From positions 1 through 64,000 of the forward strand of contig JAKSVU010000003.1 in NCBI GenBank assembly GCA_024413465.1: DNA of 64,000 bases, in the 5' to 3' direction. Of this stretch, positions 30,913-59,103 are shown piece by piece; position 1 is the stretch's first letter; every line of letters begins with the position of its first letter. Under the pieces are notes generated by a model, which was not told the origin of the DNA, ran no database searches, and was given only the letters and a program-made list of their open reading frames with translations. This stretch comes from Alphaproteobacteria bacterium (GTDB lineage Bacteria; Pseudomonadota; Alphaproteobacteria; CAAGCB01; CAG-977). The translations under genes were made by a program, and so were the position numbers.

Positions 30913-30989
30913 GTCCTCGTAGCTCAACCGGATAGAGCGTCAGTTTCCTAAACTGAAGGCTGTGAGTTCGATTCTCGCCGGGGACACCA
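30913..30989 (+). tRNA. tRNA-Arg (anticodon CCU)
   Basis: A complete cloverleaf. Acceptor GTCCTCG pairs with CGGGGAC, the D-arm is AGCTCAACCGGATAGAGC, the anticodon stem-loop CAGTTTCCTAAACTG contains CCT, the T-arm is GTGAGTTCGATTCTC, and CCA is encoded at the 3' end. It lies 10 bp behind the esterase stop with no obvious own promoter, so it may be cotranscribed. Confidence 0.95.
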
Positions 30990-39496: not shown

Positions 39497-39925
39497 TTAC
39501 TTTCCTAAGAAATTTTTCCAATCTTGTTCGTTGATAAGCAATTGTTTTGCGATGGCTTTTTTCCCTGATTGATATGAATAGACAACTTCAAAGTTTAAAT
39601 TGTTTGAATTACGGTTTAAAAATAGCTGATTAAGTTCATTTGCGTCTTTTTCAGGAATATAAAATCTGCATTGTTTTCCCCACCTTGCTTCTTTACAAAA
39701 ATCCTGTTTGGGACAACTGGATTTTGGGAATTGGGTGCAATCAACTTTATCCCAATCGATTTGATATTGGATATAATGGCCAGATAATAAATCACGAGGA
39801 TCATATCCCATAATTGGTAAAGTTAAATCTGTTCCGTTTTGACGCTGACAGGTTAAAAATAGACACCAACAAATTAAACAGAATAAGGGTGAAAACAAGG
39901 TGATATATAACGTTTTTTTATTCAT
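39497..39925 (-). CDS. GDYXXLXY-domain membrane-anchored protein
   Basis: 142 residues. The N-terminal hydrophobic segment (ITLFSPLFCLICWCLFLTC) is a membrane anchor. The motif PRDLLSGHYIQYQID (about 44-58) matches the GDYxxLxY family pattern (D/H-Y-x-x-L/Y). Five Cys follow, suggesting a periplasmic disulfide-rich domain. Its start overlaps the stop of the DUF2157 gene by 8 bp; these two families usually occur together. Confidence 0.72.
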   Translation of the reverse strand: MNKKTLYITLFSPLFCLICWCLFLTCQRQNGTDLTLPIMGYDPRDLLSGHYIQYQIDWDKVDCTQFPKSSCPKQDFCKEARWGKQCRFYIPEKDANELNQLFLNRNSNNLNFEVVYSYQSGKKAIAKQLLINEQDWKNFLGK

Positions 39926-40862
39926 TTGAAAAATCCATATTTTTAATCAATTTATTTGTTCTTTTTAAACCGAAAATCATCAGCAAAATGAAAAGGCCTC
40001 CGAATACAAATCCAAATCCGGATATTAAAAGATTGCCAAATCTTGTTGCAAATAACAAGAAGATATACATTTCTACAGCAAACGCATTTCTTTTAAATAA
40101 AATGACGTTTTGATTTTTAACAGCATAAAAAGTCATCAAACCAAACCATAAAAAAGAAAAAACATAAATTAAAAATGGAGTATGATTAGAACAGGAAAAA
40201 TTAAAAATAATTATGTATGCAACAAATATAGATAAGAAGGAAAATGCTTTTGGTAAGGTAATTTTATGAGGAATAATCGCATCTAATTTCTTACCGGCAT
40301 AACTAAGTGCTGATAAAACGAGAACAGCACAACACATACATTGATATTCATCCAAATATTTGAACAAAAAATCAAACCAATCAAGATTGAATAAGCTGAA
40401 AAATAAACAAAGCCAGCTCAAATTGAAAAAGAAAGATTTGCTGAGTAAAACAAAGGGAAGGCCTAATATAGACCATCCCAAAGCAAAAGATTGCCATCCT
40501 CCGTCAAGATTAAAAGTTTGTCCAATTAAGCCAATCGTTGCTCCAATCATTAAAAAAGAGAGAATTGAGAAAAATTCTTGCAAAGATTTTTTATGATGGT
40601 TGATTGCCCAAATTATTCCATAGGTAGAACCACCCAAAAGAGCAAAATCTCCAACGATTTTTATTCCTGTTGGTAAAACTTCCCAATTTGCTGCGACAAT
40701 CAGACAAAAACCTAACCCAATCAATAATCCGGCAATCATATAGGCGATTTTCCAAAACTTTTTCGAATTATGAGTTTTTTCATATTCCAATATCTGAATT
40801 GCTTGATTTTCTGTAATGATTTGATTTTCAATCCATTTTGAAATTTTATTGGATAACAACAT
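39918..40862 (-). CDS. DUF2157-type integral membrane protein
   Basis: 314 residues. An N-terminal helical segment (KISKWIENQIITENQAIQILEYEK) typical of DUF2157 is followed by about eight to nine membrane helices (for example IAYMIAGLLIGLGFCLIVAAN and GFGFVFGGLFILLMIFGL). Function unknown for the family. It overlaps the GDYXXLXY gene and lies 27 bp downstream of argH on the same strand. Confidence 0.8.
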   Translation of the reverse strand: MLLSNKISKWIENQIITENQAIQILEYEKTHNSKKFWKIAYMIAGLLIGLGFCLIVAANWEVLPTGIKIVGDFALLGGSTYGIIWAINHHKKSLQEFFSILSFLMIGATIGLIGQTFNLDGGWQSFALGWSILGLPFVLLSKSFFFNLSWLCLFFSLFNLDWFDFLFKYLDEYQCMCCAVLVLSALSYAGKKLDAIIPHKITLPKAFSFLSIFVAYIIIFNFSCSNHTPFLIYVFSFLWFGLMTFYAVKNQNVILFKRNAFAVEMYIFLLFATRFGNLLISGFGFVFGGLFILLMIFGLKRTNKLIKNMDFSNE

Positions 40863-40889
40863 TTTTTCCTACTCAATTAAAGTCTAATT

Positions 40890-42278
40890 TTAACTCTTTT
40901 TATTTTCACTTACCCATTTTTCATTGATTGAAATGACTGCTTTGACAGCATCGGGAGCGCAACCACCCAAAGAATTTTTAGATTTAAGGGAGGACATTGG
41001 TGTAATTTTATCAAAAATATCCAAATCAAAATCTGCGTAAAATTCTTTGAATTGTTCAAGGGATAATTCATTTAACGTCAGATGGTGTTCTTCACAAAAT
41101 TTAACGAGATTTCCAGAAATTTGATGGGCTTCTCGGAAAGGAACACCTTTATTTGCTAAATAATCAGCAACGTCAGTTGCATTTAAAAAACCTTTATTGA
41201 CGGCATTTAACATATTTTCCTTGTTATATTTCAACGTTTCAAGCATAGGGATTAAAACGCTTAAACAGTCTTTTACGGTTTTAATGGCATCAAATACAGG
41301 TTCTTTGTCTTCTTGCATATCTTTGTTATAAGCAAGAGGCAAAGATTTCATTGTTGTAAGAAGTGAAAGTAAAGAACCATATACGCGCCCACTTTTCCCG
41401 CGTATCAATTCGAACATATCGGGATTTTTCTTTTGGGGCATAATTGAACTGCCTGTTGAAAATCTGTCATCAACTTCGATAAACTTAAATTCAAAACTTG
41501 CCCATAAAATCATTTCTTCACTAAATCTTGAAAGGTGAAGCATAATCATTGATAAGTCAGACAGAGATTCAATGACGAAATCTCTGTCTGATACGCAATC
41601 CATTGAATTTAAACCGACTGATGGGAAATGGAGAATTTCAGCAGTTTTAGTTCTGTCTATGTTGTGGGGAGTTCCTGCCAAAGCACAAGCCCCTAACGGT
41701 AAAATAGTCACTCTTTTTTTGCAGTCAGAAAGTCTTTCAAAATCCCGTTTAAACATTTCAACGTAGGCACCAAAGTAATGAGCGAGTGTCACTATTTGAG
41801 CGCGTTGCATATGCGTATATCCAGGCATAATCGTTTCTGTATTTTCTTTTTGAATTTTGATAAAAGTTTCAATCAATTGTAAAAGTTTGTTTTGAATTTT
41901 ATCAATTTCTTCAGAAATAAATAACCTTAAATCAAGAGCAACCTGATCGTTTCGGCTTCGAGCAGTGTGAAGTTTTTTACCGACTTCGCCAATTTTTTCA
42001 ACCAAAAATTTTTCAATATTCGTATGAATATCTTCAAAATCTGGGTTGAATACTAATTTGCCGGTTTCAATTTCAGCTTTAATTTCATTCAAGGCCGTTG
42101 TAATTTTTTCGACTTCTGTTTCAGTCAAAATTTTTTGACATCCCAACATTTTTACGTGAGCTAAACTGCCCTGTATATCTTGGCTGTACAATTTACAATC
42201 AAATTCAAGTGAAGAATTAAAAGCCTTTGCTATTTCATCTTGAGATTTGGAAAATCTCGATCCCCACAACTGTTGCAT
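40890..42278 (-). CDS. argH: argininosuccinate lyase ArgH
   Basis: Last step of arginine synthesis: argininosuccinate to arginine and fumarate. Fumarase/aspartase superfamily signature GSSIMPQKKNPD is at about residues 274-285, with TARSRNDQVALDLRLF (about 104-119) and MPGYTHMQRAQ (about 151-161). Length 462 is standard. It sits 12 bp after argG in an operon that appears to be under attenuation control. Confidence 0.96.
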   Translation of the reverse strand: MQQLWGSRFSKSQDEIAKAFNSSLEFDCKLYSQDIQGSLAHVKMLGCQKILTETEVEKITTALNEIKAEIETGKLVFNPDFEDIHTNIEKFLVEKIGEVGKKLHTARSRNDQVALDLRLFISEEIDKIQNKLLQLIETFIKIQKENTETIMPGYTHMQRAQIVTLAHYFGAYVEMFKRDFERLSDCKKRVTILPLGACALAGTPHNIDRTKTAEILHFPSVGLNSMDCVSDRDFVIESLSDLSMIMLHLSRFSEEMILWASFEFKFIEVDDRFSTGSSIMPQKKNPDMFELIRGKSGRVYGSLLSLLTTMKSLPLAYNKDMQEDKEPVFDAIKTVKDCLSVLIPMLETLKYNKENMLNAVNKGFLNATDVADYLANKGVPFREAHQISGNLVKFCEEHHLTLNELSLEQFKEFYADFDLDIFDKITPMSSLKSKNSLGGCAPDAVKAVISINEKWVSENKKS

Positions 42279-42290
42279 TTATCTTCCTTT

Positions 42291-43505
42291 CTATTTTTTG
42301 CTATTTGCTTTTTTGACGAGAGCATTCACTTTTAAAGGTAAGCCAAAAAGATTGATAAATCCTTCTGCATCTTTATGGTTATATAATTCACCAGTTGTGA
42401 AACTTGCCAAATTTTCGTTATACAAAGAATACGGAGAAGTAGAACCTGCGGAAATAATATTTCCTTTGTATAGTTTTAATTTAACTTTTCCAGTAACTGT
42501 TTTTTGGGTATTTTCAACAAAAGCAACAAGTGATTCAAATAATGGAGTAAACCATTCACCTGAATAAACCAGTTCTGAAAATTTAATAGCAACAATACTC
42601 TTGAAAGATTGTGTTTGTTTATCCAAGCATAAATGTTCCAATTCTTTGTGAGCAGCATATAAAATTGTTCCACCCGGTGTTTCGTAAACGCCTCTTGATT
42701 TCATACCGACAACTCTGTTTTCGACTAAATCGATAATCCCAATTCCATTTTCACCACCAATTTTGTTAAGCGTTTTTACTATTGTGGCTGGACTCATTTT
42801 TTCATCATTAATTGCAACAGGATTTCCTTGTTCGAAATCTATTTCAACGTAGGTAGGTTTATCCGGTGCGTTTTCTGGAGTTACAGATAAATGTAAAAGT
42901 TTATCATAGTTTGGTTCCAAAGCTGGATTTTCAAGTTCCAATCCTTCGTGGCTTAAATGCCATAAATTTCTGTCTCTTGAATAAGAGTCTCCTTTTTTCA
43001 TTGGAACTTCAATTCCTCTTTTTTCAAGATATTCAATTTCATCTTCTCTGGATTTGATATCCCATATTCTCCATGGAGCAATAATTTTTAATTCTGGAGC
43101 TAACGCTTTAATTCCTAATTCAAATCTGACTTGATCGTTTCCTTTTCCCGTTGCTCCGTGACAAATTGCAACAGCTCCTTCTTTTTGTGCAATTTCAACG
43201 AGCTTTTTAGCAATAAGAGGTCTAGCAATACTTGTTCCAAGTAAGTATTTCCCTTCATAAACTGCATCAGCTTTTAAGGTTGGGTAAACGTAGTCTTTGA
43301 CAAATTCTTCTTCACATTGAACTAAATAATATTTGCTGGCACCTGTTTTTAAAGATTTTTCTTCTAATCCATTTGTTTCAGTTCCTTGACCGACGTCAAC
43401 ACAAGCGGCGATAACTTCGTAATCATAGTTTTCTTTTAACCAAGGTATAATAACTGTTGTGTCTAATCCACCTGAGTATGCTAATACAACTTTTTCTTTC
43501 ATCAT
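42291..43505 (-). CDS. argG: argininosuccinate synthase ArgG
   Basis: Condenses citrulline and aspartate with ATP. The N-terminal [16 protein letters not shown] (about 8-23) is the ATP-binding signature, followed by [21 protein letters not shown] (about 113-125) and [14 protein letters not shown]. Length 404 is typical. A double ATG begins the gene; the second (43502) is better spaced from GGGAG. Upstream lie a leader peptide with adjacent Arg codons and a terminator that can be replaced by an antiterminator. Confidence 0.96.
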
Positions 43506-43522
43506 TTTTCTCCCATTTTAAA

Positions 43523-43559
43523 TAAAAAAAGCTTTATTCCGAAGGCGACGGAATAAAGC
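43523..43559 (-). terminator. attenuator terminator in the argG leader
   Basis: On the minus strand GCTTTATTCCG (43559-43549) and CGGAATAAAGC (43541-43531) form an 11-bp stem with loop TCGCCTT, followed by seven T, 25 bp before argG. Bases 43554-43547 (ATTCCGTC), spanning the 5' arm and loop, can instead pair with GACGGAGT at 43608-43601, which would break this terminator. Confidence 0.85.
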
Positions 43560-43606
43560 ATCTTTACAATAAATATTAGAAATCTATTTAAATACACAAA
43601 ACTCCG

Positions 43607-43675
43607 TCATAGACAAAAGCTACGTCGAATTAAGTTTTTTGCAGAATATTCAAATACAATTTCAAATTTTTTCAT
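43607..43675 (-). CDS. candidate argGH leader peptide with tandem Arg codons (22 aa)
   Basis: A 22-codon ORF starting MKKFEIVFEYS and ending LIRRSFCL. Arg codons 17-18 (CGA CGT) lie 12 bases before the stop codon, and the stop codon overlaps the antiterminator strand GACGGAGT. A stalled ribosome at the Arg codons would leave that strand free; a ribosome at the stop would cover it. No Shine-Dalgarno sequence is seen, and the predicted transcription start is only a few bases upstream, so it may be read leaderless. Regulatory rather than functional as a peptide (inference). Confidence 0.7.
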   Translation of the reverse strand: MKKFEIVFEYSAKNLIRRSFCL

Positions 43676-43684
43676 AGTAAAGCT

Positions 43685-43712
43685 AGTATATCTGGTTATT
43701 AAGTTTTGTCAA
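43685..43712 (-). promoter_or_regulatory. sigma-70-type promoter of argG-argH
   Basis: TTGACA (43712-43707) and TATACT (43690-43685) on the minus strand, 16 bases apart. The start of transcription would fall around 43678, only a few bases from the leader-peptide ATG at 43675. Confidence 0.82.
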
Positions 43713-43755: not shown

Positions 43756-43935
43756 TCATTGTAAAAGTTTTAATACGCCTTGATCCTGTTGATTAGCTTG
43801 TGCAAGCATAGCTTGAGTGGTTTGTTGAAAAATATCGTTTTTCGTTAATCCATTTTCCCCACCAACAATGTCTTCTAATTCATTATCGGTGAGTTCTGTG
43901 ATTTTATTGTCTTCTTTTTCTAATTTTTCAGTCAT
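43756..43935 (-). CDS. double-glycine leader peptide with flagellin-like C-terminus (59 aa)
   Basis: Residues 1-26 form an acidic leader ending ITELTDNELEDIVGG, the pattern of peptides cleaved after GG by C39-peptidase transporters. The remaining 33 residues end TTQAMLAQANQQDQGVLKLL plus a final Q. This closely resembles the C-terminal D0 helix of flagellins (QQAGTAMLAQANQ, then V-L-S-L-L). The gene starts 22 bp after its paralogue at 43958 and shares its promoter. Role unknown; mimicry of flagellin or binding to a flagellin chaperone is inference. Confidence 0.72.
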   Translation of the reverse strand: MTEKLEKEDNKITELTDNELEDIVGGENGLTKNDIFQQTTQAMLAQANQQDQGVLKLLQ

Positions 43936-43957
43936 GCGTTTTATCCTGTCAATAAAG

Positions 43958-44239
43958 TCATTGTAAAAGGCCTAATGTATTTGCCGCATTTGAGTTTTCT
44001 TGTGCAAGCATAGCTTGAGCAGCTTGTTGAAGTAAATTTTGTTTTGCTAATATCATCGCTTGGTTAGCAGCTAAATCAGCACTAGATGGAATTTGTGCTT
44101 CTGTCCCATTGGGGAATGATTGTGCTGAACAAACACAGGTTGTTCCACCGACAACATCATTTAATTCATTATCAGTGAGTTCTGTGTCTTCATTGTCAGT
44201 CTTTATTTTTTCAGCAATGCTTTGCTCCGTTATTTTCAT
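43958..44239 (-). CDS. double-glycine leader peptide with flagellin-like C-terminus (93 aa)
   Basis: A leader ending TELTDNELNDVVGG (about residues 19-32) is followed by a 61-residue mature part starting TTCVCSAQSF, with a C-x-C pair. It ends in an Ala/Gln-rich helix (LLQQAAQAMLAQENSN, then TLGLLQ) that matches the flagellin C-terminal D0 segment and the 43756 paralogue. The start at 44239 is chosen because the ribosome-binding site TGGAGAATTGCT is identical to that of the 19345 peptide; an ATG at 44272 lacks one. ECF-type promoter 41 bp upstream. Confidence 0.75.
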   Translation of the reverse strand: MKITEQSIAEKIKTDNEDTELTDNELNDVVGGTTCVCSAQSFPNGTEAQIPSSADLAANQAMILAKQNLLQQAAQAMLAQENSNAANTLGLLQ

Positions 44240-44279
44240 AGCAATTCTCCATAAAAAACTAGTAGCTCTCACTTAATAT

Positions 44280-46806: not shown

Positions 46807-47406
46807 TTATATCAGTTTTACTAATTTCTGCTTAGCTTCAGAGTTCCCCTCTATATAACGTTGCGTGGTTTGAAGCGAACCATGTCCAGCAAGTTGTTGA
46901 ACATCACGAAGGCTACCTCCTACCAACGATATTTTAGTTGCACAATTAGTTATAAATGTTCGTCTTCCACTATGAGACGAAAGACCTTTCAGTCCAAGGG
47001 ATGAATACAGAACTTTAAAAAAATTAGTTATCACTTGAGCTGTTGTATGATTTCCACGCTCGGTTCTGATTATACTTGATTCAGGCAAAGGCTTTTCTTC
47101 ACTAGAATTAAATAAATCTACCAAAGCTTCTTTCAGCATATCGTTAAAAGGTATCTGACGACCACCTTTTTTTCCTTTTGAAGCAATATTGGTCAGATTT
47201 ATAACATCTCCAACTACTCCATCAGAATTTAAGACCATTGACCAAGTAATAGCTGATATTTCTTTAGCTCTTAAACCTGCTTTACAAGACAAAAGAAAAA
47301 TAACTTTATTTCTGATAGGATACCTTGTTCTCGAGATGTGGTCTAAAATTTTAGTGATATTTTGAGGGGTCAAAATTTTAGCTTGTTTACCTAGTCCTGT
47401 TCCCAT
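46807..47406 (-). CDS. tyrosine recombinase (phage-type integrase), short
   Basis: 199 residues comprising only the catalytic domain: first Arg in KAGLRAKEI (about 47-55), HSGRRTF (H-x-x-R, about 142-148), and the LAGHGSLQTTQRYI motif carrying the H/W position and the nucleophile Tyr (about 175-188). The N-terminal core-binding domain is missing or very short, as in minimal integrases. Likely integrates or resolves the local island. Codon use differs from chromosomal genes (GAT GTT). Confidence 0.85.
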   Translation of the reverse strand: MGTGLGKQAKILTPQNITKILDHISRTRYPIRNKVIFLLSCKAGLRAKEISAITWSMVLNSDGVVGDVINLTNIASKGKKGGRQIPFNDMLKEALVDLFNSSEEKPLPESSIIRTERGNHTTAQVITNFFKVLYSSLGLKGLSSHSGRRTFITNCATKISLVGGSLRDVQQLAGHGSLQTTQRYIEGNSEAKQKLVKLI

Positions 47407-47479
47407 GACACGAACTCCTTATTTTATCTACAAACTTATTATAAAATCATAAGTTTATAAAAACTAGATTTATTATAAA

Positions 47480-47505
47480 AAGTTCCTTTATGAATAAAGG
47501 AGTTA
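47480..47505. repeat. inverted repeat upstream of the recombinase gene
   Basis: AAGTTCCTTTAT and ATAAAGGAGTT form an 11-bp imperfect stem about 75-100 bp upstream of the recombinase start. It could be a terminator for the AlpA-like gene or a recombinase/excisionase site; not decidable here. Confidence 0.4.
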
Positions 47506-47521
47506 AAAAATCAGCTCAAAA

Positions 47522-47710
47522 TTATAAATTTTCGATTGAATTTTCGTTTATAAAGTCGAAAACTGATTGGACAGGTATCATTCTTCTTCCTAAAACTTTT
47601 ATACTTGGTAAGCAATTATATTCGAGAAGCTTGTATACACTTGATCTGGAAATTCCTAGAGCATAACAAGTTTGTTGAATTGTAAATAAATATTTTTTAT
47701 CTTTTTTCAT
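47522..47710 (-). CDS. AlpA/excisionase-like helix-turn-helix protein
   Basis: 62 residues. The MerR/excisionase-type HTH_17 fold is evident: FTIQQTCYALGISRSSVYKLLE, then LPSIKVLGRRMIPVQSVFDFI. Typical of excision or regulatory proteins beside integrases. It lies upstream of the recombinase gene on the same strand. Confidence 0.8.
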   Translation of the reverse strand: MKKDKKYLFTIQQTCYALGISRSSVYKLLEYNCLPSIKVLGRRMIPVQSVFDFINENSIENL

Positions 47711-47869
47711 AGAACTGCTCCAAAATTAGACAATTTTACATATAAAATTATTAATTTTGAAAAACGTTCTCGTACACTGTTAAACTATGTAGGATAAACT
47801 AAAACACTAAAATTATAATAGGGGAGGATATAAATATTCCTCTTTATTAAAAAAAACAAAACATACTAA

Positions 47870-48340
47870 TTATTTACTATGAATAAAGGCATGTTCCTCT
47901 TTAGTAAGCCATATTAAATTACTCAATTCAGGCCCTTTGCCATTATTGAATATATGATGGACACAATTTCTTACTTTTCCTTCAACAGTATTATCAAGCC
48001 AAGTTTCTGCCATTATTCTATAAACTTTAATAGATTCACCTACTAACAAATATCCTTTATCTTTTTTATTATCTACAAAATCCTTATTATCTTTATCTTT
48101 TATAAGATGCTTTGTTCCGTTTATAATAGTTGGGTATTTGTAAACATAATAGTTGTTTTTACCACCTTTTTCGTATCTTCTTTTATATGTATCCTTAAAC
48201 TGATTTAAGTATTCGTTTATTCTTTGAAAAATAGGAGCATCTTCTTTATACAATGCATCTTTAATTTCACCTAGTTCTAATGAAAGAATTTCACCTATTC
48301 CTTTAATTTTATATGGAATTTCTGTATTTTCACCACACAC
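47870..48340 (-). CDS. HNH endonuclease-like protein, 5' end uncertain
   Basis: The C-terminal part has YRIMAETWLDN, then RNCVHHIFNNGKGPELSNLIWLTKEEHAFIH in pieces, the pattern of phage HNH nucleases (HH, N, H). The first 80 residues are helical and unassigned. The frame begins with a GTG codon without a good ribosome-binding site and stays open for about 12 codons upstream, so the N-terminus may be truncated or start from a non-ATG codon. It follows the BrxA-like fragment by 31 bp. Confidence 0.6.
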   Translation of the reverse strand: MCGENTEIPYKIKGIGEILSLELGEIKDALYKEDAPIFQRINEYLNQFKDTYKRRYEKGGKNNYYVYKYPTIINGTKHLIKDKDNKDFVDNKKDKGYLLVGESIKVYRIMAETWLDNTVEGKVRNCVHHIFNNGKGPELSNLIWLTKEEHAFIHSK

Positions 48341-48371
48341 TTTTTGTTTTTCCCGAATGATATTTACTGAA

Positions 48372-48674
48372 TTAATTCATCCCTAATGCTTTATAAACAG
48401 CTAATCTTGCAGAACTAACATCTCCATAAGCAATTAGATTCCATAGTTCCATGTCAAATAATTCTAACCTATTTTTCACGAGCATAAACATACGTTTAGC
48501 AGCAGCCATACCTCTTTTTTGAAGAATATTATCTTCTTCCACTAAAATCTTTATTTCATTAAAAGATTTACCTTCACATAAAAGTTGGGAAACGATGCGT
48601 GTTTCTGAAAACAACAACGCTCCACCCGTCATATCTGCTTTATAAATATCCTTTGCTTGTTTTAAATTAGTCAT
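48372..48674 (-). CDS. BrxA-like (DUF1819) protein, C-terminally truncated
   Basis: 100 residues. YKADMTGGALLFSETRIVSQ, then EEDNILQKRGMAAAKRMF and LELFDMELWNLIAYGD follow the conserved order of BREX protein BrxA (G-x-LL-x-x-E-[ST]-R, N-x-LQ-x-R-x-x-x-A-x-R, LW-x-L-x-x-G). Usual BrxA is about twice as long; here the frame ends right after VYKALGMN. It overlaps the XRE gene by 8 bp. No other BREX genes (pglX, brxC, pglZ) are in the window, so this is likely a remnant or a reduced stand-alone form. Confidence 0.6.
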   Translation of the reverse strand: MTNLKQAKDIYKADMTGGALLFSETRIVSQLLCEGKSFNEIKILVEEDNILQKRGMAAAKRMFMLVKNRLELFDMELWNLIAYGDVSSARLAVYKALGMN

Positions 48675-48891
48675 CTGTGAAATCGTCCTTATTTAATTCA
48701 ATAACATCACCAATATCACATTTTAATGCACGACAAATTCTTACCAAAACTTCCATACTAACAGGTTCATTCCATTTAGACATCTTACTAATGACTGTCC
48801 AAGACAAACCTGTCTGTTGTTGTAGGTCTGTCTTTTTCATTTTTTTATCTTTTAGCATTTTCCAAAGTTTATCGTAATTTATTATTTTCAT
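48667..48891 (-). CDS. XRE-family transcriptional regulator (74 aa)
   Basis: A Cro/CI-type helix-turn-helix (MKKTDLQQQTGLSWTVISKM, then MEVLVRICRALKCDIGDVIE) covers the whole protein, as in the small HTH_26 group. It overlaps the BrxA-like gene by 8 bp and probably regulates that cassette. Confidence 0.85.
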   Translation of the reverse strand: MKIINYDKLWKMLKDKKMKKTDLQQQTGLSWTVISKMSKWNEPVSMEVLVRICRALKCDIGDVIELNKDDFTDD

Positions 48892-48968
48892 ATAAATTCA
48901 ACTTTCATACCAATTTAAGCGGTAAGTTTACATTATAAAAAATGCTACTTCAATTAAAATCTTTACAC

Positions 48969-49280
48969 TTATGGAGATTTCTTAAAACACCCTGTTAAAT
49001 TCGTTAATTGATTATTAGAACAATCAACACAACCTTCTACTTCTTCCGGAAACCCTTCTAAACTTGTCAAGTGATTGTAAGAACAATTGAAAATATGTCC
49101 TACTTTTTTTGGTCATCCCTTCAAAGTTGTTAATTTATTATCAGAGCAATTAAAATCATATTCAATTTTTTTAGGACAACCTTTTAGCGTGATTAATTCT
49201 TTTTTATCACAATAAAAAGATCCTCCATCATATCTAATATCTATAATTTTTCCTCTTTGGACTTTAAATGAACACATCAT
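48969..49280 (-). pseudogene. leucine-rich-like repeat protein interrupted by one stop codon
   Basis: The frame from ATG 49280 runs 103 codons to 48969, with a single in-frame TGA at 49115-49113 (codon 56). It encodes repeats of the form 'F-N-C-S-x-N-x-L-T-x-L-x-G-C-P-K-K': FNCSDNKLTTLKG-stop-PKKV, FNCSYNHLTSLEGFPEEV, DCSNNQLTNLTGC. The stop stands exactly where the repeat has Cys (TGT/TGC), so a one-base nonsense change is the simplest explanation. GGAG precedes the start. Confidence 0.75.
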
Positions 49281-49980
49281 TTTTATTCTCCATTTTCAAA
49301 AGCTATTTTTAACTTGTTAGATACAATATACTACGTGAATATGACAAACAGAGTCACAAAGAAGTTTCGTTTGTTGTTTTTATCGAAGAGTATTAGAAGA
49401 TTATCTTGATTTGTGATATCAAAGAGTCCCGTAGTTTACGTGGGATTCTTTTTTACTGGCTAAGAGCGTACTTGACATTATATCTTTGGGTGTTGGCTGT
49501 TAAGTCGCAGGGTTACTCGTTTGCTTTTAATTAGATTAAACTAATACTAACTATCCTTGTTTATTTAATCGCCTACACGGTAATTATAACAATCAAGAAG
49601 AAAAAGCAAATGAATTTGTAAGCTGATAATAATGTGTTCCATTTGTTTTGTTGTATAATGTTGCAAAATGTTATTAACAATATCATTTATAGAGAAATTA
49701 ATGAAAATTAACGTGCAAAGCGTCCGTATAGCGTCCAAAAATAAAAATAAGCTTTCAGCAAAATGCTAGAAAGCTCTAGAAAATGGTGGTGTAGAAAACC
49801 TTTACGGTACCTAGCATACTAAAGTTTCACATTCCCAAGCCAAATAACAGGGAATCTACAGGGAAATATTAATCTTTTTAACCAGGAATTTTACCTCGTA
49901 TCTCCTGAAAATATTAGCACTTTCGCTTTTAAAGGCCAAAAATTATCAGGGAATTAAAAACAAAGAACAGAGGAGATAAA
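49281..49980. other. gene-free accessory stretch
   Basis: No ORF I can support in about 700 bases. It contains a terminator (49424-49454), two GCGTCC boxes about 11 bases apart near 49720-49737, and three ACAGGGAA/CAGGGAA boxes at about 49847-49862 and 49947. These may mark the edge of an inserted element; I cannot assign them. Confidence 0.5.
49424..49454 (+). terminator. intrinsic terminator in the accessory stretch
   Basis: AGTCCCGTA and TACGTGGGATT pair imperfectly around GTT, followed by CTTTTTT. No plus-strand gene lies directly upstream, so it may be a relic or serve an unseen transcript. Confidence 0.55.
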
Positions 49981-51753
49981 TTAAATATCTGTACTTTCTT
50001 TTTCTTCATTGTCACCAGGAGAAGAAAATGTAATTCCTAAAAGGCTACCAGAAACATTTGCATCAGTTAAACTTCTAACAACATAATTTGTGTATTTAAA
50101 ATCTTCAGAAAAATCCATTACTGGGAGTTGATCAGAATTTAAAGTAAAAATATATTGGAAATTACAATCTATTGCTTTTTTTGCTGCCAATTCAATGGCT
50201 TTTGCTCTTTGTCTAGAATCTACAGCATCATACAAAGTACTATCATGAATCAAAAAATCTATTCCCTGAGGTAAATTTTTACGAAACATTTCAATTAACA
50301 TAAGATCATAACAGAATATATCCATTCGCTCTATGCCTTCACTTGTTTTTTCCCGAGATATGTTAAACTTGTAATTTCCATATCTATCTGTATCTACAAT
50401 AAGATTTGCATACATATCATACAGAAACATAGAATTTTTATTAAATATCGAAATTTCTTCTTTCAGATATTCATTAATGTTTATATCTTGGTTTATTTCA
50501 TGTTTTATTAGATCTTTTTGACTTTTAATTTTATATATTTGATCTTCAGCATCCTGTTGTTTTTTTATATCCGATTTAACCTCCTCTAATTGGGCTAATT
50601 TTTTAGATAAATTATCTTGAAGTAGAGAATATTCGTCTAAAGCTCCATGAGCTGATAATATCTTCATTTTTTCAGCTCTTTCATTTACATATTTTTCTAT
50701 TTGTGCATCGATTTCTTTTATATCGATTTCAATTTGTTTGACTTCATTTTGTAAGAATTCTTTTCTGTTTTGGATAATAATCTTATTAAAATTCTGAACT
50801 TCTTTTAGAGTTCTTGTTACATTTTCAGAAAAAGAAATTTGAACTTCTTTGTACATTTTAGAAATAGCATTTATATCATTATTGTTATTTTCCTCAATAA
50901 TAATTGATTGATATTCTGATAATTTCTTTTTGATAAAAATTTTTTGATTATTTAATGATTGCAAATTTTTTGTAAGAATATTAGCTGCATCCTGTATTTC
51001 TCTATATTCTGGCAACACATTGAATTCTTGTATATTTTTTCTTAATTTATTTATTTCATCAGATAATATTACCATTTGAGAATTCAGTTTACCAATAGTT
51101 TGTCCTTGAGACTTGAAAAAAGATATTAAATTCTTATGCTTATCTGTTTCCTCTTGAAAATTATGCAATTCAAGACTTTTTCCCCAAAGCAAATTAAGAA
51201 CAAAAGCATTGTTTGTCTGCTTTTGAACTGCTTTTTGATTTTTAAAAGTTGTAAAAGGATCGGTATAAGCTCCAGATTTTCTTAAAAAATACCCTAACAC
51301 TGTTCTTCCTGTTGGAGAAAATGCTTTTTTTGTTTCAATGTTCTTGATATTAAACAAATTTTCCCCTAAAAATTCTTTCCATTCACCAATATCTATATAT
51401 GCGGATTGATCTTTTTGCTGTTTTAAATCAAAAGGAATATTTTTACAAAAAGAATGGATAAAAATTCGTTTTGGATTATCTATATAACGAGTAACCTCAA
51501 AGTGATAACTATTTAACTCTAATTCTAAAGAAAAAGCCCAATCTTTCAATTCTAAAGCATTTAATTTACTATTTTTCGAAAAATCTGATCCTAAACAAAA
51601 ATCTAAAATTTCAATAAATGTTGTTTTACCTAATGCATTTCTTGAAGCTTTCTCGCCTGATTTGCTAGTTTTTTCTGCTAAAACAATATTCAGCCCTCTA
51701 TTGAATACAATAGGTTTAAATGTAGAATGATTGGCTGATAATTTATATAACAT
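49981..51753 (-). CDS. ABC-3C system ATPase (DUF2326 protein)
   Basis: 590 residues of the RecN/SMC-like ABC ATPase type. The N-terminal P-loop is ASRNALGKTTFIEIL (about 36-50), a long coiled coil spans about 200-430, and the C-terminal DUF2326 domain has DIFCYDLMLIEMFRK and GIDFLIHDSTLYDAVDSRQ, which supplies Walker B-like features. In ABC-three-component systems this ATPase works with a small middle component and an effector protein in genome conflict. It overlaps the middle-component gene by 11 bp. Confidence 0.85.
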   Translation of the reverse strand: MLYKLSANHSTFKPIVFNRGLNIVLAEKTSKSGEKASRNALGKTTFIEILDFCLGSDFSKNSKLNALELKDWAFSLELELNSYHFEVTRYIDNPKRIFIHSFCKNIPFDLKQQKDQSAYIDIGEWKEFLGENLFNIKNIETKKAFSPTGRTVLGYFLRKSGAYTDPFTTFKNQKAVQKQTNNAFVLNLLWGKSLELHNFQEETDKHKNLISFFKSQGQTIGKLNSQMVILSDEINKLRKNIQEFNVLPEYREIQDAANILTKNLQSLNNQKIFIKKKLSEYQSIIIEENNNNDINAISKMYKEVQISFSENVTRTLKEVQNFNKIIIQNRKEFLQNEVKQIEIDIKEIDAQIEKYVNERAEKMKILSAHGALDEYSLLQDNLSKKLAQLEEVKSDIKKQQDAEDQIYKIKSQKDLIKHEINQDININEYLKEEISIFNKNSMFLYDMYANLIVDTDRYGNYKFNISREKTSEGIERMDIFCYDLMLIEMFRKNLPQGIDFLIHDSTLYDAVDSRQRAKAIELAAKKAIDCNFQYIFTLNSDQLPVMDFSEDFKYTNYVVRSLTDANVSGSLLGITFSSPGDNEEKESTDI

Positions 51754-51979
51754 CCCTATTCCTCTTATATATTCGGTTATTCTTAAATTCTATAGCTCCA
51801 ATAGAATAAAGAAAATCCAATGTTAATGTAAAATATTGAAATGAATTTAGTTTTATGCGAGCTTTAGATAATTCCCACAATCTGGATACAGTTAATGGAT
51901 TATCTAAAATTCTCAGTATTTGTGAACCAATCCCTAATAAAGACTTATCCATAGATATAATTTTATTCGGTAAAATCAT
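51743..51979 (-). CDS. ABC-3C middle component (MC6-like)
   Basis: 78 residues, a winged-helix-like adaptor: LLGIGSQILRILDNPLTVSRLW, then KLNSFQYFTLTLDFLYSIGAIE and a basic end. Size, sequence style and position between the HNH-containing protein and the DUF2326 ATPase match the middle component type 6 of ABC-three-component systems. ATGA overlap with the upstream gene indicates tight coupling. Confidence 0.8.
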   Translation of the reverse strand: MILPNKIISMDKSLLGIGSQILRILDNPLTVSRLWELSKARIKLNSFQYFTLTLDFLYSIGAIEFKNNRIYKRNRDVI

Positions 51980-52746
51980 TTTTCAAATATCTCACAAATA
52001 TGGAAAAAATAAGTTAAAACTGCAATGCCGGCAGCTTGTAATGTAAAATCGTGTTCTATTCCAGCATGCATTCTATCTAATATTGCTAGAAACAAATCAT
52101 CTCCTTTATATTTTTGAGCTTCCTCTTTATAGATTGATTTTATACAATTTAGTAAATCTTCTGCAAAGGTAGCATTTGTTTGATTGCTTAAATAAGCAGC
52201 TACAAATTTCGTCTTTAACATTCCTTGCTGTATAAGGTTATAGATTTTATGAGATAATTCATTTTTAGTAATTTTTTCTTCAATTTTAATTGTAGAATAA
52301 TCAGGATTTTCCGAGTAATCCGAAGCACAGTTTGCTATTGCTTTACATATCACTTCCAATTCTGCATAAGTTATATTTAATATTTCTTCACTTAGTTGTT
52401 TATTTATCCAATCAGTATGCTCTCGCTTCATTTGTATTAATTTTTTAGCAGAAAAATTTTCTGGAGCTGCATCTATTTCACTATGACATGAAGGACATAA
52501 TAAAATTAAGTTTGATTCGTCATTTTTTAGTTCTGTGGGAAAATTATCTTGTTGTATTTCAGAGTATCTTGGAGAATTTGACTCTCCAAACGGATAAATA
52601 TGAGCAATTTGACCTATTTGCGTTGATTTATTTTCTCCAATAATTATAGGTCTGTGACATTTAGAACATCTACCCGCAGCATTAGCATACAGTATTTTTA
52701 TGGTTTTAACACTGTAAGAACGCTGTTTTGAAGAAGAATCTACCAT
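51976..52746 (-). CDS. ABC-3C effector-type protein with N-terminal HNH domain
   Basis: 256 residues. The N-terminal region (about 15-115) is an HNH/zinc-ribbon nuclease fold: CSKCHRPII, IGQIAHIYPFG, and CPSCHSEID give two C-x2-C pairs and the catalytic His. The C-terminal half (about 130-250) is helical and matches the ABC-3C-associated C-terminal region that contacts the ATPase. First gene of the three-gene unit; likely the nuclease that attacks invading or host DNA when triggered (inference from the family). Confidence 0.8.
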   Translation of the reverse strand: MVDSSSKQRSYSVKTIKILYANAAGRCSKCHRPIIIGENKSTQIGQIAHIYPFGESNSPRYSEIQQDNFPTELKNDESNLILLCPSCHSEIDAAPENFSAKKLIQMKREHTDWINKQLSEEILNITYAELEVICKAIANCASDYSENPDYSTIKIEEKITKNELSHKIYNLIQQGMLKTKFVAAYLSNQTNATFAEDLLNCIKSIYKEEAQKYKGDDLFLAILDRMHAGIEHDFTLQAAGIAVLTYFFHICEIFEK

Positions 52747-52816
52747 TCTACATTATCCCTTAACTATCTAAAATCAGCATACATAACATTAGTTAACACA
52801 AAATGAAAAGTCAAAC

Positions 52817-53665
52817 TCATCTAGGCTTTTTCTTCTCAATATCTTTCTTTTTGTCCTTCTTCGGCAGGTAGTTTTCATCGGTAACGACGGATTTGCCGGT
52901 TTCTTCTTCATATTTTTCTTTAGCAACACAGGCGACATTACCACCACGACGAGCGGCCTTTTTATTTTCCGCCATTCCGGTTGCTCCCATATTTTCTGCC
53001 ACCTGACGCGTTGAAAGTTCTGCTAAAGCAGTAAAGATAAGTTCTGCCTCGTTCATATGGTCACGCAAATTTTGCGATTTTAGACCTTTAAGCTGTTTAT
53101 GTTCTTTAACAGACAGTCCAGACCATTCCTGATGAATGATATTGGTTAAAATCGCATATTCCTCATCTTTGGTGATTTCGTGATCTTTCCAATAATCCGT
53201 CAACTTATTACGAGTTTCTTGTCCCATCATACGTTGCTGAATCCATTTTTCGGAATGTCCGAGCTTTTGCCAATTCTCGCGAGCACGATCAATACTCAAA
53301 GCAGGATCAACCGTTTCTTTCATCCGCTCATAACCAACTCGTGCCAACCACTGCTTAATCGGCTCAGCTTTAGGACTTGGTACTGACTGCACAATTCGGA
53401 GCATTGTTTCAGCATCGGCAGCATCAGTATCGCGCATCTTCCCATCTGTTGCCAACATTTTCAACCGTACGATTTTTTCGTACGGTTGAGAAGAACCAGC
53501 TTCTTTATTCAGTTTTCGCTTTAAATCTGACCAGTAACGCTTTGGTTCTTTACTTTCACTGAGAATAGCGATGACATCAATTACCGAAAAGTACCAAATA
53601 TCCTTTTCTTCATCATAAACTGAGCGAATTTTGCTTTGTTCAAACAGTTTAATATCATTTTTCAT
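52817..53665 (-). CDS. Bro-N domain protein (phage antirepressor/DinD-like)
   Basis: 282 residues. The N-terminal Bro-N domain (about 8-110) shows SKIRSVYDEEKDIWYFSVID and VIAILSESKEPKRYWSDLK. The C-terminal half resembles DinD-type proteins, with GGNVACVAKEKYEEETGKSVV near residue 245 and a lysine-rich tail. Such proteins are phage antirepressors or DNA-damage-induced. The GC content and codon use are higher and different from the ABC-3C genes next to it, so the two were probably acquired separately. Confidence 0.78.
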   Translation of the reverse strand: MKNDIKLFEQSKIRSVYDEEKDIWYFSVIDVIAILSESKEPKRYWSDLKRKLNKEAGSSQPYEKIVRLKMLATDGKMRDTDAADAETMLRIVQSVPSPKAEPIKQWLARVGYERMKETVDPALSIDRARENWQKLGHSEKWIQQRMMGQETRNKLTDYWKDHEITKDEEYAILTNIIHQEWSGLSVKEHKQLKGLKSQNLRDHMNEAELIFTALAELSTRQVAENMGATGMAENKKAARRGGNVACVAKEKYEEETGKSVVTDENYLPKKDKKKDIEKKKPR

Positions 53666-53790
53666 GCTTATTTCCTTAAGTTTTCTTTATTCAATTTTAC
53701 AAGTTTTGCTATAAGAATCAAGGAAACATTAGGATTCATAAACTAAAAAATCGCAATAACCTCTCAAATTCAGAGATAGCAAAATGCTAT

Positions 53791-54288
53791 TTATTTCTTT
53801 CGGACTAATTTGCAGTAAACTTGTGACAACAATTCAGCATCAAGCAACGCTCCATGAACATCTCTTTTGTTGGTATTAATGCCAAACCTTTCACATAACG
53901 CATCCAAATTACACCGCATGTTAGGAAATGCAGCTTTTGCCAGTTTCAGGGTATCCGTCATTTTATTTGTCAGTTCAAAACCTAACTCGTGATTTAAGAA
54001 ACTTAAATCAAAGGATATGTTATGTGCAATTAATTCTTTGCCTTCAATAAACTTTAGAAAATCATCCTTTATTTCATCAAAAGTCGGAAAATCTTTTAAG
54101 TAATCCGTCGTTAAACCATGTATTTGCACAACCTCATCAGGTACAATTTGTTCCGGATTGATATAAGTATGAAAGACGGCTCCGGTCGGTTGATTATTTT
54201 CATCAATTTCAATAGCGCCTATTTCAACCAATTTACAATTTTTAGGATCAAATCCCGTGGTTTCGGTATCAAAAATGACTTTATGCAT
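53791..54288 (-). CDS. DnaQ-like 3'-5' exonuclease, catalytically complete
   Basis: 165 residues, DEDDh family (Pol III epsilon-like). Exo I is FDTETTGFDP (first D and E), Exo II AHNISFDLSFL (D), Exo III VHGALLDAELL (H and D). Short, stand-alone exonuclease domain. AGGAGG precedes the ATG. The 16-bp motif GCGACC-N7-GTC lies 43 bp upstream. Two related genes lie at 57938 and 58432, with degraded active sites. Confidence 0.88.
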   Translation of the reverse strand: MHKVIFDTETTGFDPKNCKLVEIGAIEIDENNQPTGAVFHTYINPEQIVPDEVVQIHGLTTDYLKDFPTFDEIKDDFLKFIEGKELIAHNISFDLSFLNHELGFELTNKMTDTLKLAKAAFPNMRCNLDALCERFGINTNKRDVHGALLDAELLSQVYCKLVRKK

Positions 54289-54330
54289 ATATGCCTCCTA
54301 TTAAATTATATTAATTATAAAAGACATATC

Positions 54331-54346
54331 CGACAGATTCGGTCGC
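54331..54346 (-). promoter_or_regulatory. shared operator-like motif, copy 1 (before dnaQ-like gene)
   Basis: On the minus strand it reads GCGACCGAATCTGTCG, 43 bp before the exonuclease start, with TATAAT about 10 bases downstream, so it overlaps the -35 region. Copies in the same orientation relative to their genes lie at 54790 and 58982. Confidence 0.6.
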
Positions 54347-54368
54347 AATAAAACAATATACACAGAAA

Positions 54369-54689
54369 TTATTTCAAAGCATCCACAACTTTAATAAGTG
54401 TTGAAATTTGGTCATCTGATAATTTTTTAATACTGGAAATTAGTGCAGCTTCTTCAAAAATGCGTTTACGGCTGATGTTTTTATCCAAACTGTCATCTAA
54501 TATATCGCAAAGAGAACAACCTAAAACTTTTGCAATTTGTATCAAAGTTTCAAAATGCGGATAATTTACGCCTCTTTCAATATTCGAGACTGCTTCAACA
54601 GAAATATTACAACGCTCTGCTAAAACTTCCTGCGTTATCTTTGCTTCTTGACGTATAGCCTTTATTTTTAACCCGATTTTATGCTTCAT
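54369..54689 (-). CDS. XRE-family transcriptional regulator (106 aa)
   Basis: An N-terminal Cro/CI helix-turn-helix (KIKAIRQEAKITQEVLAERC, then ISVEAVSNIERGVNYPHFETL) is followed by a helical tail that probably dimerises. The ATG at 54689 is chosen over 54701 because GGAG sits before it. It is the only DNA-binding gene between two copies of the GCGACC motif, so it is the leading candidate to bind it (inference). Confidence 0.85.
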   Translation of the reverse strand: MKHKIGLKIKAIRQEAKITQEVLAERCNISVEAVSNIERGVNYPHFETLIQIAKVLGCSLCDILDDSLDKNISRKRIFEEAALISSIKKLSDDQISTLIKVVDALK

Positions 54690-54789
54690 ATTTCGCTCCA
54701 TTTATAGAAGTTAAACTTAAAGTTTTAGCTTGAAAACGAAGCAAAACTTTTATAATACTATTATAAATACAAGTTTTACTTAATAAGAT

Positions 54790-54805
54790 GCGACCGAAAA
54801 TGTCG
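54790..54805 (+). promoter_or_regulatory. shared operator-like motif, copy 2 (before nuclease-like gene)
   Basis: GCGACCGAAAATGTCG, 51 bp before the ATG at 54857 and in the divergent region with the XRE gene. Compare copy 1 (GCGACCGAATCTGTCG) and copy 3 (GCGACCAAAACAGTCA). Confidence 0.6.
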
Positions 54806-54856
54806 TATTCTCATATTAAGTAATAAGCAACTGTAACGTTTTTTAGGAGAAAATTT

Positions 54857-55759
54857 ATGAATACGAGAGCTCTGAAATCTGATTTTTTCAAAGAATTTGA
54901 AAAGGGTGGAAAATACGAAAAAATCGTAGAATTAGTCAAAGCAGACAACAGTTTAATTATGTGTATGCGCGGAAGTTATGTAACAATTTATTATAAGAGC
55001 TTACAAATTCTAAAAATTAATGAAAAAGGAACATTTGAAGTAGATGCAAATTATAAAATTAATCCGAAAGATTATGGTGATAGCTGGGCAGTTTATTTTA
55101 AGGATGCTAAAGAAGCTTTAGATAATCATAATGATGTTGAAAAACTGGAAAAAGAAGTTCAACAAGCATTGGTCAAAGAAAATAACTGTGGTTCAATATG
55201 CAAAGAAACCGACTATTTTATTTTGGACATTGAATATACGCAAAGTGATTTTGATGGACGTTTTGATGCGTTGGCAGTTTATTGGCCAAAAGATAAACGC
55301 AAAAACGGCAATAATTTAAGATTAGCTTTTGTAGAAGTTAAAGCAGGAGAAAAAGCTATTTCCGGAACATCAGGCGTATCTCGACACTACAAATCCGTTA
55401 TAAAATTTATGGGCGAACTTAATAATAATAAAGATGAATTTCTTGAAGACTTAGAAAAAGTGATTGAGCAACAGCGCAAGCTCGGTTTATGGGAATATGA
55501 TAATTCGCGCAAGATAACATTTTCGCGGACGGAAAAACCGCAATTAATCTTTGTTTTGGTTAATTATAACCCAAATTCAAGCTATCTTGATAACGAAATT
55601 AAGGAAATAGGCAATTATGTTGAAAAATATGAAAATGAAATTCCGATTGAAACGCTTTTCGCCAGATCTTCATTCATGGGCTACGGTTTATATGACAGTT
55701 GCATGCTATCTTTAGAATATGTCCAAAAAAGAGTTTGCAGAGGCAATCATGAAGGCTAG
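54857..55759 (+). CDS. putative PD-(D/E)xK nuclease-like protein
   Basis: 300 residues, no signal. The centre has FDGRFDALAVYWPKD, then RLAFVEVKAGEKAISG (about 133-175): an Asp followed by E-x-K on the next strand, the core of PD-(D/E)xK nucleases, with a conserved-looking SRHYKS after it. The N-terminal 100 residues are unassigned. Function as a DNA or RNA nuclease is inference. AGGAG precedes the start. The next gene (MBL fold) begins inside its 3' end, so the two are translationally coupled. Part of the candidate defence operon 54857-57943. Confidence 0.55.
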   Translation: MNTRALKSDFFKEFEKGGKYEKIVELVKADNSLIMCMRGSYVTIYYKSLQILKINEKGTFEVDANYKINPKDYGDSWAVYFKDAKEALDNHNDVEKLEKEVQQALVKENNCGSICKETDYFILDIEYTQSDFDGRFDALAVYWPKDKRKNGNNLRLAFVEVKAGEKAISGTSGVSRHYKSVIKFMGELNNNKDEFLEDLEKVIEQQRKLGLWEYDNSRKITFSRTEKPQLIFVLVNYNPNSSYLDNEIKEIGNYVEKYENEIPIETLFARSSFMGYGLYDSCMLSLEYVQKRVCRGNHEG

Positions 55760-56945
55760 TATCAAAAGAGGGGCAAATCAAATCGGCGGATCGGCAGTGG
55801 AATTAACCGCCAACTCCGGTGAGCGTTTGATTATTGATTTAGGACTACCTCTGGATGCCGAAGAAAACACCGCAGATTTATTACCCGATATTAAGGGACT
55901 AAAAAATAAAACCGATGATTTGCTGGGGATTCTTATTTCTCACCCTCATCAAGACCACTATGGCTTGGGTTTGCACATTGATAACAGCATCCCGATTTAT
56001 ATGAGCAAAGCAACGGCCGATATTATGGATGTATGCGTTAAGCACAATCTTCCCAACGCCTTTGCTTTCGGTAATATACATATTTTTGATGATAAATCTT
56101 CTTTTTCTATCGGTCCGTTTACCGTAACGCCATATCTGGTTGACCATTCCGCATACGGAGCATACGCCTTTTTGATAGAGGCCGACGGTAAACGCTTGTT
56201 TTACAGCGGGGACTTTCGTGCCCATGGGCGCAAGGGCAAATTATTTGACGGTTTTATCAAAAATCCTTCCAAAGATATTGATGTTTTGATGATGGAGGGC
56301 TCTTGCCTTGGTCGTGAACAGTCAACAAAATATCCGTCTGAAACATCTCTTGAAACAGAATTTGAAAAGATCTTTAAGGAAACCAAAGGTGTAGCCTTTA
56401 TTCAAAGTTCTTCACAAAATATTGACCGTATTGTGACCATCTACAGGGCAGCAAAGAAAAGTGGTAGAACTTTAGTTATAAGCGGTTACACCGGACACGT
56501 CTTAATGGTGCTAAATAACGAGCATTTACCCAGTTTTAAATGGCCGAACGTGAAAAAGTTTGCAACAGATAGTACGACACCGCATAACATAACCAAAGAG
56601 ATGATAGCGCAAAATCCATCCAAATATGTGATTATGTTCGGCGGTCTGATTTTCAATATCTTAAAAAGCAGTTCGCTTGTTAACGAAAATGCTTCCTTTA
56701 TCTATTCTATGTGGGACGGCTACAAAGAGCTGTATCAAGAACGCTTAGATTTAATGAAAGAAAAAAATGTACCGATGTATGATATTCATACTTCTGGTCA
56801 TGCGGATATTCCGACATTGCAAAAATTTGCTTTGGCCATAAATCCTAAAAAAATTGTACCGATACATACTTTCTTTCCCGAGCAATTTAAGGAACTGTTC
56901 AACAACGTAGAATTGCATAATGATAACGAAACTTTTGAAATTTAG
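55749..56945 (+). CDS. MBL-fold hydrolase, RNase J/beta-CASP-like
   Basis: 398 residues from the chosen start. ISHPHQDHYGLGLHI (zinc motif H-x-H-x-D-H) is near residue 63. YSGDFRAHGRKG (the D/H metal region) lies near 155, and late TSGHADIPTLQ and KKIVPIHTFFPEQF motifs near 350-375 belong to the beta-CASP arm. Likely a nuclease acting on RNA or DNA ends. The ATG at 55749 has AGAGG upstream and overlaps the previous gene by 11 bp; a start at 55719 is also open. It is distinct from the native RNase J-like protein at 31728. Codon and base use differ from the native genes. Confidence 0.75.
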   Translation: MKASIKRGANQIGGSAVELTANSGERLIIDLGLPLDAEENTADLLPDIKGLKNKTDDLLGILISHPHQDHYGLGLHIDNSIPIYMSKATADIMDVCVKHNLPNAFAFGNIHIFDDKSSFSIGPFTVTPYLVDHSAYGAYAFLIEADGKRLFYSGDFRAHGRKGKLFDGFIKNPSKDIDVLMMEGSCLGREQSTKYPSETSLETEFEKIFKETKGVAFIQSSSQNIDRIVTIYRAAKKSGRTLVISGYTGHVLMVLNNEHLPSFKWPNVKKFATDSTTPHNITKEMIAQNPSKYVIMFGGLIFNILKSSSLVNENASFIYSMWDGYKELYQERLDLMKEKNVPMYDIHTSGHADIPTLQKFALAINPKKIVPIHTFFPEQFKELFNNVELHNDNETFEI

Positions 56946-56953
56946 GATGTAAT

Positions 56954-57943
56954 ATGCCAGTAAATCATTCCGCCAGACTTGAAAAAGTAGAAAATATAAT
57001 CAGGCTTATCAATCGTATGGCAGGTTCTACCGAAGGTGTAAGCATTAATGATATAATGGTGGAATATAAAGTCTGTCGCCGTACTGCCGAAAGAATGATG
57101 AATATTATCAGGGCGCTTTATTCAGCACAACTGGAAGAAGTCGATAACGGAGAAAACTATAAATCATATCGTTTGCAAGAGCTTTATCGCCAGGGACCGA
57201 TAAAATTAGCGCCTGAAGAAATTTCCTGTCTATCTCAAGCAATAAAATTAGCTCATCGGGGAAAAAGAGAGGAATTAGCTGATGAATTACAGCACCTCGA
57301 ATACCGCATAAAATCATTTTGCAAGGAAAAAGACAAGTATAACGTCGAAAATATAGCGGAAATGGAAGATATCAGCATGTCTGCCGGTCCAAAATATATA
57401 ATCAATCAAGAAATTTTAGCAGACCTTCGCAATGCCATCACAAATTGGAATGAAGTAATTATAACCTATAAACTGCGCGCAAATGGCGAAACTAAGCACT
57501 TTCGGATACAACCTTATGGTATTTTATATGGCTCCAGACCTTATTTAGTAGCTTATTATGAGACAGATAAAGATTACCGTTATTTTTGTCTTTCTAATAT
57601 TATTGCCATAGAGCTAACCGATATCAAATTCAGCCGCAATGAAAAATTTTCTCTGCAAAAATATGCAGAGCAGTCTTTCGGCAGTTTTCAGGAAAAACCT
57701 TACAATGTTATTTGGAAAGTCAACAAAAACCGAGCAGACGATGCGGAACATTATTTATTTCATCCGACTCAAACTATAGAAAAGCAAAAAGACGGCAGTT
57801 TAATTGTACGTTTCACCGCCGGTGGCTTAAAAGAAATGTGCTGGCATCTCTTTACTTGGGAGGGAGATATCGAGATACTGGAGCCGCAAGTATTAAAGGA
57901 AACGATGTGCGATTTGCTAAACAAAGCAAAAAATATGCTATAA
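56954..57943 (+). CDS. WYL-domain transcriptional regulator
   Basis: 329 residues. An N-terminal helix-turn-helix (LINRMAGSTEGVSINDIMVEY, CRRTAERMMNII) is followed by a WYL domain (FRIQPYGILYGSRPYLVAYY, then RYFCLSNI, about 180-215) and a C-terminal WCX-like extension (AGGLKEMCWHLFTWEGDIEIL). WYL regulators often control defence cassettes by sensing nucleic-acid fragments or nucleotides. It starts 8 bp after the MBL gene in the same operon. Confidence 0.85.
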   Translation: MPVNHSARLEKVENIIRLINRMAGSTEGVSINDIMVEYKVCRRTAERMMNIIRALYSAQLEEVDNGENYKSYRLQELYRQGPIKLAPEEISCLSQAIKLAHRGKREELADELQHLEYRIKSFCKEKDKYNVENIAEMEDISMSAGPKYIINQEILADLRNAITNWNEVIITYKLRANGETKHFRIQPYGILYGSRPYLVAYYETDKDYRYFCLSNIIAIELTDIKFSRNEKFSLQKYAEQSFGSFQEKPYNVIWKVNKNRADDAEHYLFHPTQTIEKQKDGSLIVRFTAGGLKEMCWHLFTWEGDIEILEPQVLKETMCDLLNKAKNML

Positions 57944-58429: not shown

Positions 58430-58431
58430 GG

Positions 58432-58935: not shown

Positions 58936-58981
58936 AACTTCTCCTTTTTTGATATATATATCTGGCTATAAAGCAGTGCAA

Positions 58982-58997
58982 TGACTGTTTTGGTCGC
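58982..58997 (-). promoter_or_regulatory. shared operator-like motif, copy 3 (before degenerate dnaQ-like genes)
   Basis: On the minus strand it reads GCGACCAAAACAGTCA, 47 bp before the start at 58935, nearly the same distance as copy 1 from its gene. It also lies in the divergent region with the gene at 59104. Confidence 0.58.
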
Positions 58998-59103
58998 TAA
59001 ACTTAAAAATATACATAAAAATACACATACAATTACTTTTTTACTTGACAGCTTTGAAAATATGCGCTACATATAAAGTAACAATCCATAAAAGGAGTTT
59101 TAT

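Follow-up and report, generated by a model that had tools for sequence, protein, structure and literature searches.

The two arginine genes argG and argH in the window, which is the whole 64,000-nucleotide stretch of DNA analysed here, are very probably controlled by an arginine-specific transcription attenuator of the classical ribosome-mediated type. The element is a genuine, well-formed candidate and arginine-specific classical attenuation is by far the best reading of it, with translation of the leader, actual termination and the response to arginine being what we infer from its architecture. The mechanism itself is already known from trpL-type systems, it is the amino acid that is unusual and the evolutionary position that is informative. 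Classical attenuators are listed for Trp, His, Thr, Leu, Ile/Val and Phe, with arginine genes known instead for ArgR or T-boxes, and to our knowledge arginine is not an amino acid usually placed under attenuator control. In a search outside the subscription literature no arginine biosynthesis operon turned up that is reported to be preceded by an intrinsic-terminator attenuator containing Arg codons, and if the element is confirmed arginine would join the amino acids with classical attenuators. The features on which the argument is built all lie on the minus strand:

43685-43712, minus strand: sigma-70-type promoter, TTGACA (43712-43707), 16-nt spacer, TATACT (43690-43685)
43607-43675, minus strand: near-leaderless leader peptide ORF, 22 aa, MKKFEIVFEYSAKNLIRRSFCL, stop TGA
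43622-43627, minus strand: tandem Arg codons CGA CGT, residues 17-18, the proposed sensor
43603-43629, minus strand: 1:2 protector hairpin, UUCGACGUAG (43629-43620) with CUAUGACGGA (43612-43603)
43547-43608, minus strand: 2:3 antiterminator, GACGGAGU (43608-43601) with AUUCCGUC (43554-43547), plus helices in the loop
43524-43559, minus strand: 3:4 intrinsic terminator, stem 43559-43549 / 43541-43531, U7 43530-43524
42291-43505, minus strand: argG, argininosuccinate synthase (NF001770, 607 bits; TIGR00032, 499 bits)
40890-42278, minus strand: argH, argininosuccinate lyase, the second gene of the operon (TIGR00838, 608 bits)
40888-43523, minus strand: DNA homology to Gastranaerophilales argGH (~74%), from after the U-tract to the end of argH

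The order on this strand is thus two small peptide genes, the promoter, the 22-codon ORF, the terminator and argG-argH, the last two identified by curated models. The TTGACA/TATACT promoter claimed in the first-pass annotation is indeed there, matching the consensus at 11 of 12 positions and being the best such match in the region, and the -10 box predicts a transcription start at ~43678. The predicted 5' UTR of ~3 nt does resemble that of the leaderless rhizobial trpL to which the annotation had likened it, namely the trpL of S. meliloti. No Shine-Dalgarno sequence was found for the leader ORF, which runs from the ATG at 43675-43673 through 22 sense codons to the TGA at 43609-43607 and has the adjacent CGA CGT codons near its end, just as had been described. 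The chance of an Arg pair in a 22-codon ORF is 2.8%, falling to 0.9% for a pair within the last seven codons at the genome Arg frequency of 3.8%, and any short ORF containing RR occurs in 4% of shuffles. Arg is the only residue that occurs as an identical tandem near the critical window, and it is the product of the pathway to which the downstream genes belong. Counting against an attenuator are that the leader has only two Arg codons and that near-leaderless promoters are uncommon in the genome, as judged from a crude scan. A further frame of 31 codons (43502-43597, minus strand) opens with GTG 10 nt beyond the stop of the leader and runs through the terminator into the start of argG, which it overlaps (ATGA); this is possibly translational coupling or else chance.

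The strong terminator said to stand just before argG was found between the leader ORF and the argG start at 43505, with an 11-bp stem, a loop of 7 nt by scan count and a U7 tract ending at 43524; terminator-like sites occur in shuffled sequence at a mean of 0.2 per region. An 8-bp pairing with one G-U between GACGGAGT (43608-43601) and ATTCCGTC (43554-43547) had also been proposed, it is present and is worth -8.9 kcal/mol alone, or -17.8 kcal/mol with the helices inside it, a value equalled by 0 of 200 shuffles. The antiterminator and the terminator are mutually exclusive, with 43554-43549 common to the antiterminator and the terminator arm. A third hairpin, overlooked earlier, completes the set of 1:2, 2:3 and 3:4 structures. 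This protector consists of 9 pairs and one A-A mismatch (-7.0 kcal/mol computed for 43632-43600), it uses the Arg-codon segment as strand 1 and conceals the antiterminator strand 43608-43601. When the terminator was kept and all upstream sequence was dinucleotide-shuffled (n=2000), an equally good antiterminator appeared in 0.1% of shuffles and an equally good protector in 0.85%, with both equalled in 0 of 2000. These chance figures were not multiplied because the tests are partly dependent, the Arg codons supplying the G+C of strand 1.

It is apparent that the operon behind this element, comprising the last two genes of arginine synthesis in a gut alphaproteobacterium, is foreign and came from another phylum. 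The argG protein is 89% identical to a Gastranaerophilales protein and ~47-50% identical to the native argG of its own order, and the DNA homology to the same Gastranaerophilales locus covers argGH and the ribosome-binding region (43523-40888) and nothing more, from which comparison argGH is taken to be horizontally acquired. All nine Arg codons of argG are AGA, making it the only gene to use AGA alone among 1000 genes that have nine or more Arg codons, and donor-like argG genes are nearly all-AGA for Arg. Donor codon usage therefore explains the contrast between CGA/CGT in the leader and AGA in argG, and this contrast was set aside as evidence of selective charging. Contamination of the contig is unlikely as the Gastranaerophilales homology spans argGH only and the G+C of the contig matches the rest of the genome; GcrA, a mark of Alphaproteobacteria, was found in 12 of 12 genomes of the order (with one Sulfolobus match too in the control set).

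Homology to the donor-like DNA starts at 43523, immediately past the U-tract, with BLAST ends in such AT-rich DNA good to about ten bases, and as it is limited to the argGH span the promoter, leader and terminator are not donor-like. A donor origin of the leader was also considered and rejected, since the closest Gastranaerophilales among the donors sampled have argG directly after argF without a leader. The position of this seam allows another explanation, that the terminator merely ends an upstream unit comprising the small peptide genes at 43756-44272, that the foreign argGH landed behind it and that chance accounts for the small ORF with its Arg codons. With homology starting where it does argGH was indeed joined behind a terminator, and the peptide genes are on the same strand with no terminator-like site between the stop at 43756 and the promoter. 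Against this, the terminator lies ~200 nt beyond that upstream stop, and a strong promoter, an in-frame ORF, tandem Arg codons and two more hairpins, a combination rare in shuffles, intervene, so this explanation is considered improbable.

For the attenuator, the seam makes it quite possible, if short of probable, that it originated in the recipient lineage where the acquired argGH joins, from a recipient promoter, leader ORF and terminator that were added or adapted, and that a genome without ArgR thereby gained amino-acid-specific control of foreign genes. As the homology breaks at the terminator, this would be a case in which one can reconstruct how an attenuator came to stand on a transferred operon, which bears on the suggestion that random sequence may give rise to leader peptides again and again (PMC2965389).

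The two small genes upstream, 43756-43935 and 43958-44272 (minus strand), are in tandem and their peptides share the motif ELTDNEL-D-VGG. They resemble double-glycine-leader peptides of the bacteriocin or RiPP precursor type, the larger is without a Pfam match, and a further peptide of this kind is found at G000:C42 near 18.6 kb.

The behaviour of the leader was computed by partition-function folding according to ribosome position, on transcripts of varied 3' end, with the ribosome front set at 15 nt past the first P-site base. This footprint is the E. coli textbook value, applied here to the leader. When the A site holds CGA or CGU the front is at 43615 or 43612 and 43608-43601 stays free, and with the ribosome at the stop the front is at 43597 and that strand is wholly masked. 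Without a ribosome the protector forms with P(1:2)=0.94-0.97 and the terminator with 1.0. Once a ribosome sits at CGA, at CGU or one codon further on, P(2:3) is 1.0 in transcripts whose 3' end lies from 43545 to 43534, a state that lasts until the 3' arm of the terminator is nearly made, and with the ribosome past those codons, up to the stop, the terminator is again at 1.0. The first-pass annotation had judged the spacing to fit classic attenuation, and both geometry and energetics agree by placing strand 2 free or masked as expected; folding of both leader states, which it had advised, gave computed structures that switch with ribosome position. At equilibrium the full-length RNA favours the terminator even with a stalled ribosome, so the choice has to be made kinetically, as for trpL. 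For E. coli trpL the same computation likewise had 2:3 form first when the ribosome stood on the Trp codons, and the terminator preferred at full length.

Strand 2 is freed by a stall at any codon as far as AGC, and stalls further upstream could partly relieve termination (edge 43645). This would suit a leader whose translation governs termination without arginine specificity, through translation speed or ribosome-targeting inhibitors, like the uORF attenuators of resistance genes. Set against such a general role is the fact that the only tandem near the critical window is of Arg and that the operon makes Arg, and such a role is very unlikely.

Arginine-specific attenuation would then proceed as follows. 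RNA polymerase would start a few bases before the leader ATG with a ribosome behind it. If charged Arg-tRNA is scarce the ribosome would stall at CGA/CGU, occupying strand 1 and leaving strand 2 free to pair with strand 3, which would block the terminator and let the polymerase enter argGH. If Arg-tRNA is ample the ribosome would reach the UGA and cover strand 2, the 3:4 hairpin would fold and transcription would end before argG. Should the leader not be translated, the 1:2 protector would fold and the terminator would form again.

This scheme shares with the enteric trpL-type attenuators (trp, his, thr, leu, ilv) the cognate tandem codons in a leader ORF, the 1:2, 2:3 and 3:4 hairpins and the switch by ribosome position, whereas the argG element would sense arginine, control argG-argH, be near-leaderless and stand at the seam of an acquired operon. 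Closest in the form of its start is trpL/rnTrpL of S. meliloti, likewise alphaproteobacterial, in which the attenuator RNA begins with ATG; the argG leader RNA is predicted to begin close beside its own ATG, and in both attenuation would act without transcriptional repression. The S. meliloti system differs in its tryptophan codons, in controlling trpE(G) and in its 14-aa peptide, and its attenuator RNA and peptide act in trans (PMC7298713). Sensing of arginine by two consecutive Arg codons, through ribosome pausing, is experimentally known from orf34 of the Salmonella speF leader, which likewise has such a pair but acts on ornithine decarboxylase via RNase G sensitivity, Rho and masking of the RBS, with no intrinsic terminator before an arginine gene (PMC6386406). 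That the element is itself such a speF orf34 (speFL) regulator was rejected, the downstream genes being argG and argH with no ornithine decarboxylase. For P. aeruginosa carAB a review also describes a leader peptide before a gene feeding arginine synthesis and attenuation is proposed, yet that attenuation is attributed to pyrimidines, the arginine control is assigned to transcription and the operon is another one (PMC4997734).

The genome offers a setting in which such control would make sense. A whole-genome profile search did not detect ArgJ, the ArgR C-terminal domain, OTC or ADI, and tblastn with E. coli proteins over 1.82 of 2.03 Mb did not find argB, argC, argE, argI or carAB, a result limited by this coverage and by divergence. 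As ArgJ, OTC and ADI were not detected, gene content suggests that argGH probably turns citrulline, imported or otherwise supplied, into arginine, and as ArgR was not detected control in cis by tRNA charging is reasonable. PMC1262725 cites arginine genes of some bacteria as being under T-boxes, and its survey of Actinobacteria reports no RNA element before arginine operons, but no Rfam family reached its gathering score near the element and the T-box model was unmatched even at E up to 1, where the only two matches were sub-threshold and of unrelated families, leaving a T-box, riboswitch or other described cis-acting RNA with next to no likelihood. The only tRNA in the window is a tRNA-Arg with anticodon CCT (30913-30989, plus strand).

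Arginine attenuation of argG had been described as not standard in this group, which a survey of 117 argG upstream regions supports. These came from Alphaproteobacteria, Gastranaerophilales, Firmicutes, spirochaetes and others, with ~37 from the same class, and only the window (1 of 117) combined an RR leader ORF with a terminator no more than 90 nt from argG, thus none of the other 116. One other terminator lies that close to argG, in a member of the same genus (L116), and ends the upstream gene, and a weak hairpin found at -94 in another region (L086), next to an RR frame that is unrelated, was taken as chance. A DNA search of 11 relatives in the order gave no homologue of the leader, the matches at E 0.01-1 being short, AT-rich and equally numerous in the genome itself. 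These relatives have either the different native argG (~47-50% identical), with no leader found upstream, or none, so they are not orthologous comparisons. Among 385 genomes searched across the class, no further argG was more than 55% identical to that of the window at the cut-off used, and the leader sequence was absent from the plasmids searched, as was its exact 33-mer from the viral contigs searched.

In the 1.82 Mb of the genome itself that was scanned, 18 sites passed a loose filter requiring that a terminator stand shortly upstream of a gene without ending a longer one. Among these the argG site was the only one found to precede a gene of amino-acid biosynthesis and to carry a codon pair that matches it. 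The other candidates were mostly terminators of small unlisted genes, and hisG, hisB, hisA, thrA, thrC and art-like genes of the genome had no obvious attenuator.

Immediately downstream of argH is a pair of genes for a DUF2157 and a GDYXXLXY membrane protein (39497-40862, minus strand), the DUF2157 protein having relatives of 25-33% identity in all other genomes of the order. On the other side a prophage-like stretch (46807-63412) starts ~3.3 kb from the acquired argGH and includes:

46807-47406: integrase
59666-61003: ParB-methyltransferase protein
61826-63412: terminase large subunit
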